Virus record (IMG/VR): IMGVR_UViG_3300042301_001096
Location: 1-44,416 of that record
Origin: a virus
Strand: one strand, 5' to 3'
DNA: 44,416 bases
The notes under the pieces were generated by a model, which had not been told where the DNA came from, made no database searches, and saw only the letters and a program-made list of their open reading frames with translations. The position numbers and the translations under genes were made by a program. Below are positions 3,969 to 33,202 of the stretch, in pieces (within the stretch, counting starts at the first letter, position 1; every line of letters begins with the position of its first letter).

Positions 3969-5471
3969 ATGTCTATCGCAGAACTCATAATGCAGGGAAC
4001 CAATCGCGCATCGAACTCTACCGCATGGGTTGGAGATTCTTTGGCTAAACTTGGTCAGAATGTAGGGCAGGCATTGGCTCAACGCGAGCAGCAGAAGCAA
4101 GCGCAGGAGATGCTACCTATGTTTCAGCAGAGTATGCAGGAGTCAATGCAGCTTGCTGGACAAGGACAATCTGGTGAGGCGTATGCGAAGTTGATGCCAT
4201 TCTTGACTGATCCATCAATTGCTCAAAATCCGTTTATGATGCCAGCATTGGAAGCTGGAATAAAGATGAATCAAATTGCAGCGGATGACTTCTTGAGGAA
4301 GAGTCAGATTGATGCTTACAATACACGCACCACTGAAAAAGCCAGTCAAGGTTTGGATAATAGACAGGTTTACACTCCAGAAGAAAGAGCGAGAATGACA
4401 TTGTTGGGGCAAGCACCTCCAGACATGACGTATCCAGATCAGAATTTAATTTCTGATACAACAGCAGTATCGCAACCCATGGCACAAGGACAAACCGTAA
4501 TGCCTGCAAATCAATTGGGTTCAACGACAATTGTAGAGGCTCCACTTACACAAGAAACTACAATGCAAGAAGAGGGTGGCACTACTGAAATGACATATAA
4601 GGGGCCGCAAGTAAAAGCAGTTGAAAGCATGGCTGCATCTATTCAATCGCCGCAATACAAAAAAGCTCTTTTAAATTCTATCAAGAATCCAGCACCTCCA
4701 GAACAAGTTGCTTCATTTAAACAATTTTCAAATCAATACAATTCACTTCCAGAAGATGGCAAGATGGCAGTGATGCAAGATTTGTCTATTGTTTTTGATT
4801 CAGATAAAAACTTTGAAAAAAACAAACCACAATTAGGAAAGAATTTTTATCCGCTTAAACCAGAGCAAAGCAAGGTAATTGGAAATAATATTACTGGAAT
4901 AATTCTTGAACCTGTAACTGAAGCAAAGTCAATGACTGCTGGCGCAAAATCCGACTCAGTTACTTTTGGAACAAACAAAGAAGATATTGATAAATATCAA
5001 ACCATATTTACTTCGGCTGCGACTGAATTGGCAGAAGGTAAACTTGGAAAGTTTTTGAAAGAAAATGGTGGTGTGTTTAATACAACATACACAGAAACAC
5101 CATCAGAAGTAATTCCAACCATAGGAACACCATCTGGAAAAACAACAATACCAAGTAAAGTTATTCTTTATCAAAAAAATCTTGATCCTAATGACAAGAA
5201 AACTCCACTCATAGAACTTAGTGGAGGACAACTTGCTGCATATAAACAAATCAAAGACTCTCCAAGTAGGTTGCAGCAATTGAGAGCGGGAAATAGCAAC
5301 TCTTCATTTGTTCGTATCGCGCCAACTGGCCCAACAAGAGGAGCAGCTAAACCAGTGTCACAAATAGCAACGGTAAATACTTCATTTAATTCTGTAGAAG
5401 AAGCAGAGGCTTCTGGCTTGCCAAAAGGAACGATGATTACTATAAATGGTCGTAAAGCAAGGATCGACTAA
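3969..5471 (+). CDS. Internal virion protein, helical, 500 aa
   Basis: Starts one base after the upstream gene and overlaps the next by one base (TAATG). The first ~130 residues are strongly helical and rich in Gln, Met and Ala. A polar, low-complexity middle (130-200) has many Thr and Pro. The C-terminal half is mixed, with an acidic/Lys segment near 270-330, and ends with GLPKGTMITINGRKARID, a short motif-like tail. No enzyme motif is visible. Its place between a small and a giant internal protein suggests an ejection protein in the gp15 slot, but a structural peptide of another kind cannot be excluded. Confidence 0.5.
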   Translation: MSIAELIMQGTNRASNSTAWVGDSLAKLGQNVGQALAQREQQKQAQEMLPMFQQSMQESMQLAGQGQSGEAYAKLMPFLTDPSIAQNPFMMPALEAGIKMNQIAADDFLRKSQIDAYNTRTTEKASQGLDNRQVYTPEERARMTLLGQAPPDMTYPDQNLISDTTAVSQPMAQGQTVMPANQLGSTTIVEAPLTQETTMQEEGGTTEMTYKGPQVKAVESMAASIQSPQYKKALLNSIKNPAPPEQVASFKQFSNQYNSLPEDGKMAVMQDLSIVFDSDKNFEKNKPQLGKNFYPLKPEQSKVIGNNITGIILEPVTEAKSMTAGAKSDSVTFGTNKEDIDKYQTIFTSAATELAEGKLGKFLKENGGVFNTTYTETPSEVIPTIGTPSGKTTIPSKVILYQKNLDPNDKKTPLIELSGGQLAAYKQIKDSPSRLQQLRAGNSNSSFVRIAPTGPTRGAAKPVSQIATVNTSFNSVEEAEASGLPKGTMITINGRKARID

Positions 5472-8400: not shown

Positions 8401-11400
8401 CGTAAAATCCAGAGGGGATGTTGGAAGAACCCTTGGTGCGCTTGAGGGGTTGAAGAGTTATATCGTCCAAGCCAACGAAGCGGAGCAGGCAGGATTCATT
8501 CAATTGGCAGCACAAAGATTCTTCAACACAACTACACCAACTGAAGATCAGATTGCCAAAATCAAGAAGATTTTTACTGCTGTAAACGAAACAAAGGTAA
8601 ACGAGGAAGAAGCAATCCTTGATGAACTCACTCAAGTTGGAAAGAAGGTAGGGACTGAACTCGTAGAGAATATCAATACTCAAATTGATAAAGCATCTAA
8701 GCCAGAGGTGAAAGACCCAATGGTTGCCGCTATCACTGCGATGTTAAAACTTGGTGGAACCTTTGTTTACAAGAAGACCAAGAATAAAATCAAAGCGGCG
8801 GTAGAGAAAACAATCAAGGGTGGCATCACGAACTACAGAGACAAACTTGTAGAAGGTGCGGCTAATGGATTGGAGACTGGATTCTGGAAGACGCTTTCAT
8901 CTCAAGAAAACAAACCCGGCCCACTTGGAGAACTTGATAACGCACAGAACCGAGAGCTTGGCAACATAGTCAAAAGCACATTGGTTTCGATGAAGCTACA
9001 AGGAACGCCGCCTAATACCAAGATGTCTATCTACGAACAGGTAGCCAGCATCCTTGGTGAGAAGCCACTTTCTAAAGATAAAACTGAACTTGCTGACAAG
9101 AAGATTAGGGAAGAGATCAATAGCAAGCGCGAAAGTGAACTCAAGGAAACTGAGGATCAAGAAGCGCAAGATGCTATCAATCTCAAATACGATGAGATTG
9201 AGAAGGCTTGGGATATGGCAATGTCGCGGCAGTTGGATATGCCAGTAGGTGATGCGATGCTTCGCAGACTTATCTTCAATGAACTCAAAGAAGCCAAGAC
9301 GAGTATTAAAAAACTTGCTACCTTGATGAATGAAGACCCTACGATTGGAACAAGTAGGCAAGACAGAATCGTATCGGCTATCATCAACAAGATTGCTGGT
9401 GTTACATTTGAAGGGCAGAACCCCGCTGATTATGCGGCATTCAAGGAATATCTGAGCAATGAATTAGATTCATTGGTTCAAGGGGAGCAAATTAAGAATA
9501 AAACTGTTAAGACAAAAGAAAAGGTAAAAGCAAACCAAGCGTTGAGCGAACTCAATAAGCTGGCAAAAATTCAATCTGATACGCCTAACTTCCCAACCGC
9601 CGAGAAGATAGCTAATCCAGTTAGGGATGCAGTAAGGAATGCCCTTAAACTGAATCTGAATGTAATGTTTGACCCGAAAGCGGCAGCAGACATCATGCGG
9701 AATTGGAAGAAGGAATTTGCTGCTGAACTCCAGCAACTCGGAGTTGATGAGGCTACGGCACTGACGCTGACAGATGTTGTTGGCAGGCAGATTGAGTTGG
9801 ATTCTGTTAGCAGGAATCTTGATTCAATCGACAACGCTATCAATAAAGGTGCGCTTACAGGAGTAATCAATGCGATTAAGAACACTCCATTGGCTGACCA
9901 ACAGAAGCCTAACTGGAGATACGATGTCATGCGTGACTACCTCCGCAATGCTGGACTATCTGCAACACAAGCTGAACGGATAGCAAAGTTGATGGACATC
10001 TCGCTTCAGAAAAGATTTGCCAAGGCCCAAGAAGAGGCTGCTGCATCCATTACAAAGAAACTTTTGAAAGGTATCAAGCCAGAATCCAACCGAGGATTTA
10101 CAACATTGATCGAAGCAATCCGCGCTCAAGTCTTAAACCCCGGCAGCAATGTTGCTACTGAGTTTGGCCGCGCTATGGGATGGAAAGGATTCACAGCAGA
10201 GCAACTGAAAGCTCTGAATGAATTTGATTCTAAGATCAATGACGAAACTATTACCGAGGCAGAGCGAGCAGTAGCACTTGAAGGCATCAAGAAGATCATT
10301 GATAAAGTTGCTTTACCTACAAGGGTTAGGGATTCCCTTTCCGCTTTCTACATTGGACAAGCACTTGGAAGATTGCCAGTAGCGACAGTGCAGGTTGTTG
10401 ATCCTGCAATATTCGCTGGTTTGGATGCGGCAGTTGCTGGGTTAAAAAATATAACGAGTCCAGAATTGGCCATGCAAATATGGGGGAATTATATTTCATC
10501 TCTAATAAACGCTGGCAGAGAATTTGCCTTTTCATTCAAGAACGATGTGACCAGAAGCGGTAGGCTGGTTGACTATCTTGAGACTCAAGATAGAAAACTA
10601 AAACGACTTCGTAACGATGCTGATAACTTGTGGAAGAATGGTCAGTATATACAAGCTATTAAGAAATACCTTTTTAGTTATCCAGAAATAACATCAAGAG
10701 TATTGAAGGCTCTTGATGACGCTTCATTCTCTCTTCTCCAACAGAATGCTTTGAATCAATACATGATTTCAGCAATGAACATGGCAAAGATTCCTAAGAA
10801 AGATCAGCTTGGAGCCTTGAGGATGATTGCTCAAGCAAGGCAGATGGACATTGATAACATGATGGCAGATGGCATTAGCAAGAATGATGCTATTATCTAC
10901 GCTAACGAGCGGATGAAAGCTGAAATTTCAAGGGTTATGTCTGGGTTGAACTTAAATTCCTCCGAGATCATAGATGCAGCTATCAACGATTCATTATCTC
11001 GTATTGGTAAAAACAGATTTAAGGAACAATTTAGTGGAGAAGCTGAAATAAAGGATAAGGGAACCTTATCATATCCATTCCTTAAAATGTATGAGGGAAC
11101 ATCACGATTAGCAGCCGATGTAAAAGGGGTAGAGGGAGAAGTAATGCGTATCTTCCAAAGAATGTTATTTGGATTCCCATTGATTGTAGCAAAAGTGGGA
11201 AATGTTGCTTATGGTTATGTTCCGCTTACTCTTTATCGTCATATCCTCAAAGACAGGTATCCCCTTACATACGGAACAGTAATGCAAAGAAGGAAGCGTT
11301 TGGCAGAGCAATTAACTGGTTTTGCCGTCCTCGCTCCACTTTTATTCTTACGATCAATGTCATTTGATGATGATGAGGAAAAGCCAATTAGCATTGTAAT

Positions 11401-30247: not shown

Positions 30248-30586
30248 ATGGAAATGAAACATCCATTAGAAACTGCTTATGAATCTTGCATGAGTGCCTA
30301 CGAGCAATCACGCACGATCCGTTCTCTTGGACGAAAGACTTTCGCCAGCCAGCTTCGTGAAACAAGGAGATTGCTAAAATTGACTGTCCGTGAACTTGGA
30401 GATAAGATCGGCGTGACAGGATCACTGGTCAACCAGATTGAAGTAAACTCCAAGAGTATCCTAAAAAAAGAACAAGTCGAAAAAGTAATCGCCCTATGCT
30501 ACAAAGAAAAACGCCCATACAGGCAAAAACAGGATTCAAAAAGCGAGGCGGAAAGCTCAGAGCAGTCTCCAGCTCCCGAAGAATAA
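30248..30586 (+). CDS. XRE-family transcription regulator
   Basis: A 112-residue protein with one helix-turn-helix: LRETRRLLKLTVRELGDKIGVTGSLVNQIEV (36-66), the classical XRE/Cro-CI layout. The C-terminal ~25 residues are Lys/Glu/Ser-rich and unstructured. The start at 30248 would be only about 3 nt past the -10 box; ATG at 30254 is an alternative. It lies behind overlapping divergent promoters, as a Cro- or repressor-like early switch. The HNH gene starts 91 bp before its end in another frame. Confidence 0.8.
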   Translation: MEMKHPLETAYESCMSAYEQSRTIRSLGRKTFASQLRETRRLLKLTVRELGDKIGVTGSLVNQIEVNSKSILKKEQVEKVIALCYKEKRPYRQKQDSKSEAESSEQSPAPEE

Positions 30587-30813
30587 AAAATGCCGACTAC
30601 GAAAAAGCCAAAGCAGAATACTTTGAAGAGAAAAACTACCAGTGTGAAATATGCAACCAAGCCGCAAGCGACCTGCATCACAAAAAAGGGAGGGGTAAGT
30701 TCCTGTGTGATAAGTCCTCTTTCATGGCTCTTTGCCGCCCGTGCCACACTTATCTGCACAACAATGTAGCATGGGCAAGAGAGAATGGATATATAATTTA
30801 TGACTACAAATAA
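30496..30813 (+). CDS. HNH nuclease, zinc-knuckle type, next to terminase
   Basis: A 105-residue HNH protein. The N-terminus MLQRKTPIQAKTGFKKRGGK is a typical basic start of phage HNH proteins, which supports the long overlap with the XRE gene. Cys50 and Cys53, His61-His62, Cys80, Cys83, His84 and His88 give a zinc-stabilised ββα-metal site (LHHKKGRG ... LCRPCHTYLHNN). Similar proteins beside terminase genes assist cos/pac cleavage in other phages, but here the terminase faces the other way. Could also serve in recombination. Confidence 0.8.
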   Translation: MLQRKTPIQAKTGFKKRGGKLRAVSSSRRIKNADYEKAKAEYFEEKNYQCEICNQAASDLHHKKGRGKFLCDKSSFMALCRPCHTYLHNNVAWARENGYIIYDYK

Positions 30814-31027
30814 TACGTTTGAATCCCGCATCATCTGCGAGGGAACTGAAGTAAGCAATACACCAGAGAAGATTCTTTTTCGTCAAAAGTTCAATCAATG
30901 TTGGGTGAAGAAGAGTGACATCCGACTAAATGAAACTCTTGGACATCTTGACGGAGAGAAAATAATTCGTATTGTAGTTCCAGAAGAAGTAGCGAATACT
31001 TTGGAACTTGAAGGAATCTTAGATTGA
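30800..31027 (+). CDS. Hypothetical protein, 75 aa
   Basis: Starts within the HNH 3' end. Sequence MTTNNTFESRIICEGTEVSN, then CWVKKSDIRLNETLGHLDGEKIIRIVVPEEV, ends FxLEGILD-like acidic. Beta-rich, unknown family. The structured RNA candidate starts 4 nt after its stop. Confidence 0.55.
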   Translation: MTTNNTFESRIICEGTEVSNTPEKILFRQKFNQCWVKKSDIRLNETLGHLDGEKIIRIVVPEEVANTLELEGILD

Positions 31028-31031
31028 TCTT

Positions 31032-31167
31032 TACTGGGAAGCATGGAGTCATGCGGTGAGCGTAACTTCCTCAATAAATTACGCGCCTTATATGGCAAAA
31101 AGAGCCAAACGGCAATACATGGGGCCGTCACTGAAACCATGACCAAGAGTAACGCCTTGGCCCAGTA
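31032..31167 (+). ncRNA. Candidate structured RNA with H-type pseudoknot
   Basis: A closing stem TACTGGG (31032-31038) pairs with CCCAGTA (31161-31167). Inside, in order: GCATG/CATGC (41-45 with 50-54), GGT+GCGTAA with TTACGC+GCC (55-65 with 79-87), TGGC/GCCA (93-96 with 104-107), pseudoknot stems ACGGC/GCCGT (109-113 with 124-128) and CATGG/CCATG (118-122 with 137-141), and CCAAG/CTTGG (143-147 with 156-160); numbers are +31000. Helices abut with almost no linkers. The T57-G85 wobble fits the plus strand only. Not a class I recognise. Confidence 0.65.
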
Positions 31168-31180
31168 TTAAATTTTATAT

Positions 31181-31325
31181 GGTCGGCGGCTGAGAGGATA
31201 ACTATGCTGGAAATATTCGGGGTAGTTTCAATAATGCCGAGTTAACTCGGCCTCCCTTTGTTCTCTGCCAGAGGCAGGAAACCTACAGAGGCTTGACCAC
31301 TGAGCCAGCAATGCGAATCAGTGGT
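31181..31325. other. Hairpin-rich region before the terminase 3' end
   Basis: Contains the perfect palindrome GCCGAGTTAACTCGGC (31236-31251), CTGCC/GGCAG (31265-31277), AACTA/TAGTT (31200-31204 with 31223-31227) and ACCACTGA/TCAGTGGT (31296-31325). No ORF. It may be a second RNA domain or a terminator region for the minus-strand terminase gene. Confidence 0.45.
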
Positions 31326-31327
31326 AT

Positions 31328-33202
31328 TTACCAATCTCCGTTATCGTCTGACCCGTAATCATCGTCTTGAGTGGTATTAATTGATACCTCGTCACGCGCC
31401 CAGAATCGGTTAGTTGGAACTGGTTTATCGTTTCCGATAAAAACAAGTCCATTACGCCGCGCCATTTCGAGAGCGTAGATTAAACTATCGCTTAAGTCGG
31501 GCGAGTAACCTGTTCTGCCTTTAAGCTCATCTTTAGTCTCGATAGCAATCTTCTTGGACTTGATCGTGTATCGGCGCAAGCAAAGTTCCCGCGCCAAATC
31601 TGAAGCAGGGTCAATCCCAAAGATAACACGACTCTTGAAAGCATGATAAGCTGAGTAGTAGTATTCAGATACCAACCTATCGTAAACATCCTTACACGGG
31701 CGTTTATCAACCTCTGCCGCGATTCGGTCAGTAGGTTTACCCATAGATGAGATAAGAGCGATAGCAGCTCCAGAAGCGTCAAAGCGTAGCCACTCACGAA
31801 TGATAGCTTGTCCAACTCGACCACCATCACCAGACACGTCCATACCAAACTTAGAAGGCTGAACGCCAGCCGCACGGCACAACTGAACAACTTCAGTAGC
31901 AAGTTGGATTTCAAACTCAGCAGCGGCATTAGCGGATAGTTGAATTACCTTCTGACTTTCCAGCCACATAACACGATTGCGAGTGCCGCGAACGAATCCA
32001 AGTTTGGCTATGGTAAGAACACACCTATCTCCACCGATTGTAAATGCGGTATCAAATCCAGCTACCTTGGTAAATCCCTCGGAATCCCATAGCGGTTCTT
32101 CGTTGGTATCAGCATTACGGATCAAGTCAGCGGTAAGAATAGTCTGAGCAAATCCAGTCTTCGGCCACCAACCAATAGCGTTACGAACATAGTCAATGGC
32201 ATTCTCATCTCCATAACAAAGTTTGAGCATCATCTCCTGCTTCTTACGATCCATGAGAAATGGAAACGGAGAAGGTTCATTAGCAGGTGCGGCGAAGTTT
32301 GGGCTACGCATACCATTGTAAAACAAGCAAACTCCGGTCTCAGTCTCCCACTTATCCATGTCTGGGTTTACTGAATCAAAGTTAGAACAACCTTTTGGCA
32401 TAGCCCAACGAGTGTGAGGATTATCACCAGCAGATGGGTTTCCGATACCGATAAAGGTAACATCATCGTTTGCACCCAAGTTAACTTTTGAGGTGATCGC
32501 GCCCATTTCCATTTCTGGCAACTCATCAAGTGCAAGACGGATTCGATCATTCTTACGACCACGGGTGGTATCAACTGCTTTTTGACCTTCATTACCAGAT
32601 GGGAAGGCGAGGGCTTTGATAGCATTATCGTATTCCTTTTCCTCATCGTTTGTTGCTCCACCCCAAACAATCATATGACGATAGTCGATTAGTTTACCTA
32701 TTTGAACGCGAGCGCATTTATAAAGTTTGGAGATGATACCCCAGATACGATCTTCGGATGCACCCAAAGTGGTAGTGGCTACCCAAGATGAAGTGCAATG
32801 CGGGGCAGCGCACCAATCAAGGTAAATCCAAAGACCCACTGGAAAACTTTTTCCCATTGAAGCGGCTCCAGCTAAACAAATATCAACATTACTGCAAAGT
32901 TCATCTAATGTTCTAATTAACTGAGTGTTGGCATATCCTCGGTTGTAAATAGAAACCTCAGTCGGCCATTGAAGTTTAACTGCATTAAGAAAATGTTCAG
33001 ACGGAGAAAGTAGTTTAAAATCTGAAATATTTATATTTTGTCTAATACAATAAGTTCTACCATATTGTCCTCGACTTATAGCGTAGCAGTATAACTCAAT
33101 GCCAAGATCATCCATGTTTTCTGGAAATTGAATTCCGTAACGACGAATACCTTTGTTTGAAGAAAAAACTCTTGACATATCAATAGGAAAATATATTTTC
33201 AT
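31328..33202 (-). CDS. Terminase large subunit
   Basis: A 624-residue packaging motor. ATPase: Walker A GAASMGKS (112-119) and Walker B LALDELPE (223-230). Nuclease: Asp384 in VAGFDTAF, Asp455 in FGMDVSGDG and Asp569/Asp572 in YSPDLSDSL form the RNase H-like metal site. It would cut and translocate DNA into the prohead through the portal. Unusually it faces away from the portal block, and a palindrome lies near its C-terminus (VFIGNDK). A plus-strand promoter overlaps its start region. No lysine/arginine-rich tail; ends acidic (DDDYGSDDNGDW). Confidence 0.93.
   Translation of the reverse strand: MKIYFPIDMSRVFSSNKGIRRYGIQFPENMDDLGIELYCYAISRGQYGRTYCIRQNINISDFKLLSPSEHFLNAVKLQWPTEVSIYNRGYANTQLIRTLDELCSNVDICLAGAASMGKSFPVGLWIYLDWCAAPHCTSSWVATTTLGASEDRIWGIISKLYKCARVQIGKLIDYRHMIVWGGATNDEEKEYDNAIKALAFPSGNEGQKAVDTTRGRKNDRIRLALDELPEMEMGAITSKVNLGANDDVTFIGIGNPSAGDNPHTRWAMPKGCSNFDSVNPDMDKWETETGVCLFYNGMRSPNFAAPANEPSPFPFLMDRKKQEMMLKLCYGDENAIDYVRNAIGWWPKTGFAQTILTADLIRNADTNEEPLWDSEGFTKVAGFDTAFTIGGDRCVLTIAKLGFVRGTRNRVMWLESQKVIQLSANAAAEFEIQLATEVVQLCRAAGVQPSKFGMDVSGDGGRVGQAIIREWLRFDASGAAIALISSMGKPTDRIAAEVDKRPCKDVYDRLVSEYYYSAYHAFKSRVIFGIDPASDLARELCLRRYTIKSKKIAIETKDELKGRTGYSPDLSDSLIYALEMARRNGLVFIGNDKPVPTNRFWARDEVSINTTQDDDYGSDDNGDW
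31425..31440. repeat. 16-bp palindrome copy 15 (TTATCGTTTCCGATAA)
   Basis: Perfect arms with centre TTTC. It lies within the terminase gene and is read on the minus strand as FIGNDK. Confidence 0.9.
33172..33199 (+). promoter_or_regulatory. Promoter of the portal-side block
   Basis: TTGACA (33172-33177), 16-bp spacer, TATTTT (33194-33199). It lies in the 5' end of the divergent terminase gene. The flank AAAAAACTCTTGACATA is shared with 38369-38385 upstream of the coat gene, supporting a common late-promoter type. Confidence 0.65.

Follow-up and report, generated by a model that had tools for sequence, protein, structure and literature searches.

Phage-borne RNAs and the terminase-side locus

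Since T4, phage tRNA clusters have been known to contain small RNAs that lack an assigned function. T4 encodes two of them within its tRNA cluster, rnaC (species 1, 139 nt) and rnaD (species 2, 119 nt), with a 6-nt spacer. Other phage RNAs include ROOL and GOLLD, whose function is undescribed and which often lie near tRNA islands (PMC12286853), and pseudo-ToxI of phage TE, a phage-borne RNA antitoxin mimic that defeats the abortive-infection toxin ToxIN (PMC3475682). For the toxin AbiF, which has structural links to Cas13 ancestors, the antitoxin is abiF RNA; it neutralizes the toxin in trans by binding the protein (PMC12373285). Phage T6 evades Septu, a defence that cleaves tRNA, through amplification of a segment that contains its tRNA-Tyr gene (PMC13096335), and the manA and wcaG RNAs have been described as possible cis-regulators (PMC2864571). 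Our literature search, incomplete in its coverage, found no description of the RNA families reported below or of exchangeable arrays of noncoding RNAs.

We analyzed a viral DNA stretch of 44,416 nt (IMG/VR record IMGVR_UViG_3300042301_001096, positions 1 to 44,416; hereafter the window), in which an earlier note had placed a compact structured RNA between two convergent genes. The placement was exact: this RNA, denoted module A, starts after four free bases 3' of the gene for a 75-aa protein (Table 1). A 300-nt gap (31028-31327) separates the stops of this gene (+) and the terminase gene (-), and three structured modules, A-B-C, fill it; the two beyond A (31176-31326) had been missed. No terminator-like site was found in the gap, and neither ARAGORN nor Rfam called a tRNA or tmRNA in the window. 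Searches of cultured phages with the window region and with the terminase protein gave no match. Beside the array, the search for defence genes returned just a weak HNH/Zorya ZorE match and HTH matches. We considered the nearby HNH gene as a homing driver of the array and set this idea aside: the three genes of the XRE-HNH-75aa group also occur in array-free phages with an empty site, so homing by HNH is not shown to be the driver.

Table 1. Features of the terminase-side locus in the window
Feature	Coordinates	Strand	Details
XRE-HNH-75aa gene group	30248-31027	+	upstream of the gap
XRE gene	30248-30586	+	Pfam HTH_3 match
HNH gene	30496-30813	+	PHROG HNH match
75-aa protein gene	30800-31027	+	last gene before the gap
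Module A, structured RNA, 136 nt	31032-31167	+	A1 covariation, R1
P1 closing stem, 5' strand, 7 bp, TACTGGG/CCCAGTA	31032-31038 (partner 31161-31167)	+	
P2 hairpin, GCATG-GAGT-CATGC	31041-31054	+	paired in 33/33
P3 hairpin, GCGTAA/TTACGC	31060-31084	+	variable arm, subtype 2
P4 hairpin, TGG/CCA	31093-31107	+	99.0% of cells paired, nearly invariant
P5, stem 1 of H-type pseudoknot, CGGC/GCCG	31110-31127	+	all paired, one G-U variant
PK, pseudoknot stem 2, CATGG (31118-31122) with CCATG (31137-31141)	31118-31141	+	
P6 hairpin, CCAAG/CTTGG	31143-31160	+	abuts the 3' strand of P1
Module B, structured RNA, ~76 nt, variable center	31180-31255	+	33 homologs, 5 covarying pairs
Module C, structured RNA, 65 nt	31262-31326	+	10 distinct homologs, 2 covarying pairs
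Terminase large subunit gene, convergent neighbor	31328-33202	-	PHROG phrog_2, E 4.3e-07

The modules resemble T4 rnaC and rnaD in that they are small RNAs found in tandem with tRNA genes. However, rnaC has the T-arm and acceptor stem of a tRNA, features that module A lacks, and T4 has a fixed pair, whereas at least 10 families are exchanged among the phages studied here. Module A was also tried as a relative of the T4 RNAs and rejected; the covariance model R1 matched neither, its best match in the T4 region (E 2.9) lying elsewhere. Compared by setting, the modules are like pseudo-ToxI in being phage-borne noncoding RNAs, but ToxI repeats are tandem ~36-nt copies of one family, whereas array units are 65-180 nt long and belong to different families. 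ToxI gave no match to the array modules, and the pattern of type III antitoxins (ToxI, CptI, TenpI), near-identical repeats in tandem ahead of a ToxN-like gene, was not found at the locus, where the modules differ in family and their neighbors are the genes for the 75-aa protein and the terminase. ROOL and GOLLD are many times larger than module A and had no Rfam match in the window or the array loci; manA and wcaG did not match A, B, or C.

Fold and covariation of module A

Relatives of the locus were collected through a terminase search (80 from viral contigs), with further ones from pattern scans, and yielded an alignment of 33 distinct module A homologs (A1) covering 29 pairs, including the pseudoknot CATGG/CCATG. 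The fold of helices P1-P6 and an H-type pseudoknot was kept throughout, with 99.9% of cells paired, which bears out the compact pseudoknotted RNA that the earlier note had drawn. Changes on both sides of a pair were found in nine pairs (shuffle mean 4.5) and 40 cells (shuffle mean 5.7), a level reached by 0 of 500 shuffles. When partners were slid by 1-3 columns, at most 35% of cells could pair. RNAalifold, unprompted, recovered the nested helices with 11 covarying pairs; the minimum-energy fold includes P1, P2, P3, and P6, and R1 scored module A at 143 bits.

Folding energy was favorable on both strands (z of -2.3 for plus and -3.0 for minus), and energy alone therefore settles neither the reality of the fold nor its strand. 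Covariation settled both; as to the strand, seven G-U cells against zero A-C cells show that the folded molecule is the plus-strand RNA, as had been claimed from a single wobble pair. Module A also stands outside known RNA families: no Rfam family matched it, and a search of its region that allowed hits up to E 5 gave only four unrelated chance hits. We conclude that module A is a real, conserved, folded plus-strand RNA.

Individual helices differ in how they vary. One divergent group comprises five sequences (L149, L152, L165, L168, and L171), where three P1 pairs are altered on both sides (TACTGGG/CCCAGTA to TACGGG/CCCGTA) and all five P6 pairs are compensated (CCAAG/CTTGG to TTGGG/CCCAA). 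Since these five are related, a small number of events in evolution may account for the two-sided changes in P1 and P6; independent events beyond this group are the compensatory changes in P3 and the pseudoknot. The window carries the second subtype of module A, whose P3 arm differs from that of subtype 1; in the latter, P3 is paired in all columns (26/26 sequences) with three compensated pairs (CG/TA, TA/CG, and AT/GC exchanges). In L070 and L087 the pseudoknot stem reads CACGG/CCGTG, its middle pair having moved from T-A to C-G. The sole change in P2 is G-C to G-U, in three sequences. The P3 loop CTTCC could pair with GGAAG at 31037-31041 in a possible second pseudoknot, which is invariant among the homologs. 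Together, P6 (5 bp) and P1 (7 bp) make a 12-bp helix that resembles a tRNA acceptor/T-arm.

Arrays of exchangeable modules

Modules B and C have covarying folds of their own (Table 1), and families D and G likewise show covariation; in the strand test, module B had 87 G-U cells versus 13 A-C cells. To describe the site across phages, we took a census of 76 nonidentical terminase-side loci with duplicates removed, counting family I with G. The same gap held zero to five modules of at least eight families (A to H) in 31 arrangements, a count to which empty sites contribute four kinds (5, 6, 8, and 47 nt). Orientation was uniform (135/135 modules), tandem modules were separated by AU-rich linkers, and tRNA genes were absent. 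Gap length in the relatives ranged from 2 to 393 nt, reaching about 1.7 kb in L078. At empty sites the stop codons adjoin (TAA directly followed by TTA) or overlap, and close module-free relatives have 0-8 nt between the two genes.

Turnover was evident even between phages with near-identical terminases. The window and eight relatives (L004, L005, L006, L007, L009, L011, L012, and L014; terminase 97%-100%) carry, in this order, A-B-C, E-A, G/I-B-A, B, A-B, E-A-B, A-B, D-A-B, and an empty site, that is, eight arrangements among nine phages. In the last of these, L014, the 75-aa protein is identical and the module count is zero. Array content thus changes much faster than the flanking genes. Family D (e.g., L069:3153-3279 and L053:7775-7906) has one conserved outer shell, GCAGGCAGRTG...CCGTTCCTGC, around two unrelated interiors, so exchange happens within modules too.

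Several terminase-side loci had further peculiarities. L100 has, in addition to a full A-B-C upstream, a 31-nt remnant of the 3' part of module A (1402-1432), located behind an insert at the terminase end. The terminase gene is interrupted by inserts of 0.8-1.0 kb in four loci (L083:7166-8151, L087:4739-5700, L091:6052-6941, and L100:1515-2326). That of L100 seems to encode an HNH-like protein; the inserts are possibly introns or homing elements, and no Rfam intron matched them.

Modules were also found far from the terminase. In ~68-kb phages they follow the DnaB helicase gene, which module A adjoins, as C-A-I-D in L149 and as C-F-J-A-I-D, behind a further element K, in L152; in L153, another of these phages, tRNA-Ala takes an array slot. 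L168 has the order A, tRNA-Met, G, D, and in L176 modules C, G, and J lie between tRNA-Gln and tRNA-Thr within a nine-tRNA array. Small RNAs thus stand in tandem with tRNA genes on the same strand, module A in L168 and other modules in L153 and L176. Family J extends to large phages (contigs of 203 and 143 kb) with a G-J-N-O-P series in their tRNA regions. These occurrences away from the terminase and among tRNA genes identify the modules as cassettes that share RNA-gene arrays with tRNA genes and are interchangeable with them. The spread crosses phage lineages: module B is 99% identical in L141, an unrelated GC-rich phage, and is also present in the unrelated L174, while family G, alone or with B, and family C occur in unrelated GC-rich phages as well. 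In L149, L152, L153, and L141 the modules lie between co-directional genes.

The array of L152 had no match in cultured phages or plasmids, and that of L188 had none in cultured phages. Pattern scans for B and G over 84,980 bacterial and archaeal genomes found nothing and thus revealed no host toxin partner. GC-rich phages (L147, L148, L150, L154, and L172-L185) have G or C followed by CTCCGTGTCCTCCGTGGT-type repeats, a possible host clue; that some carriers have Verrucomicrobiota-like flanks is, as a host hint, only a hunch. Unusual genes were also noted: a phage-borne tmRNA gene close to the RNA array (L188:6497-6957), a tRNA-like gene in which about 50 nt replace or expand the anticodon arm (L176:13346-13467), a tRNA-Leu-like gene that seems to contain a group I intron (L190:10563-10800), and an intron-like remnant (L187, near 5000-5080).

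One family resembles a described antitoxin RNA. The G slot of L187 matched abiF (RF03085) at 49.6 bits against the Rfam threshold of 37. The matches of L189 (28.1 bits) and of L141 (13.4 bits), whose G is of the terminase-side type, are below this threshold but aligned with compensated stems, and for L141 abiF was the only match among 4227 Rfam families; the L168 form of G had no abiF match. The G core is like abiF in its order of outer stem, A, NGC, CUCU, loop, GCN, CA..., and outer strand, with compensation in the inner stem (TGC/GCA, CGC/GCG) and the outer stem (CCCGCC/GGCGGG, CCCACT/GGTGGG). Terminase-side G differs from abiF by two extra hairpins. An Abi_2 toxin gene was found in 0 of 22 array-bearing records, which are mostly fragments, and the abiF motif had no match around module A (30900-31400).

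A comparable gene order was seen in the cultured cyanophage S-CREM1, which has tRNA-Arg, wcaG, tRNA-Met, tRNA-Leu, manA, tRNA-Asn, abiF, and tRNA-Gly, with small ORFs between tRNA-Arg and wcaG. Within 10213-10567 (L191:1714-2068), manA sits exactly between tRNA-Leu and tRNA-Asn, and abiF lies 4 nt before tRNA-Gly. The S-CREM1 RNAs are reported in PMC9964418, apparently without this order in the tRNA array. In view of the position of manA between two tRNA genes, manA and wcaG of cyanophages, now treated as riboswitch candidates, may instead belong to the array RNAs.

What the array RNAs may do

The sequence comparisons establish a covarying pseudoknotted fold, same-strand tandem arrays drawn from many unrelated structured RNA families, rapid gain, loss, and reordering of modules, exchange across unrelated phages, and the company of tRNA genes. 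On these grounds module A is very probably an array-borne RNA gene, and the array itself, as part of our explanation, is nearly certain. We propose that the array is transcribed by read-through from the XRE-HNH-75aa genes and that its AU-rich linkers are cut, the closed stem shielding each mature RNA as with phage tRNAs. Release of module A from the 3' end of the XRE-HNH message, as the earlier note had suggested, is plausible in such a scheme, and RNase P could use the adjoining helices P6 and P1 to process the 5' end. Less certain is the next step, in which the mature RNAs would work in trans against host targets that vary, most likely as antitoxins to, or decoys of, abortive-infection toxins under RNA control.

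The antitoxin or decoy reading comes from family G, which has an abiF-like motif in records where no toxin gene was found. The trans action of abiF RNA and the ToxIN-defeating mimic of phage TE are precedents for it. Host systems that differ between hosts would also explain the fast turnover of cassettes. The pointers concern one family of at least 10, and in terminase-side arrays they are sub-threshold; module A itself matched no known antitoxin. We give roughly even chances to the reading as a whole, in which the modules are exchangeable cassettes and the RNAs of the arrays act in trans, probably as decoys or antitoxins. That module A itself is an antitoxin or decoy falls somewhat short of that, and a more specific version is more tentative still: the arrays might be collections of orphan RNA antitoxins or decoys, each family directed against a different host toxin or defence nuclease, with module A the antidote to an undescribed RNA-guarded toxin.

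Alternatively, array RNAs might aid translation or host take-over in general, in the manner of the T4 stable RNAs, and be traded together with tRNAs for late protein synthesis. The arrays shared with tRNA genes, the nearby tmRNA, the place of rnaC and rnaD in the T4 cluster, and the acceptor/T-arm-like geometry of P1 and P6 all fit such a role. We nevertheless consider it unlikely given that terminase-side arrays are free of tRNA genes, that their content changes more rapidly than the genes on either side, and that family G has an abiF-like motif. The direct succession of module A on a stop codon, the convergent genes, and the single orientation would suit cis-acting 3' UTR elements, terminators or stabilizers of the XRE-HNH-75aa message that insulate the terminase gene. 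Yet the gap lacks a terminator-like site, close relatives manage with 0-8 nt and no module, and modules recur between co-directional genes and among tRNAs, making this explanation improbable.

We hold a similarly low opinion of selfish noncoding mobile units that insert at gene 3' ends and fold for transposition or splicing. Their precise presence or absence, reordering, and spread among unrelated phages would be expected of such units, but no linked integrase or transposase was found, the families tested are under an RNA-type (G-U) constraint, tRNA genes take the same slots, and the orientation is always single. Least credible is a packaging RNA similar to phi29 pRNA, or a pac-site element, beside the terminase, a link that the earlier note had raised. 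Module A does adjoin the terminase gene in the window family, but its distribution contradicts the role: it is missing from phages with 94%-97% identical terminase, including close relatives, it lies beside DnaB in ~68-kb phages and with tRNA-Met in L168, and Rfam gave no pRNA match. Of the earlier reading, then, the RNA itself stands and the packaging link falls; the main correction is that module A is one cassette of an exchangeable array.

Returning to the antitoxin or decoy reading, we note that phage array RNAs as such were already known; new here are the many additional array RNA families, their shuffling, and the likeness of one to an antitoxin. Ten or more families, the majority of which are absent from Rfam, are exchanged as cassettes while selection on their fold is strong, and the arrays may constitute an RNA toolkit against bacterial defences. 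If the remaining families are antitoxin-like, phages own a whole class of RNA counter-defence tools. Each family would then indicate an undescribed bacterial system, and the arrays would serve as a catalog for finding such toxins.
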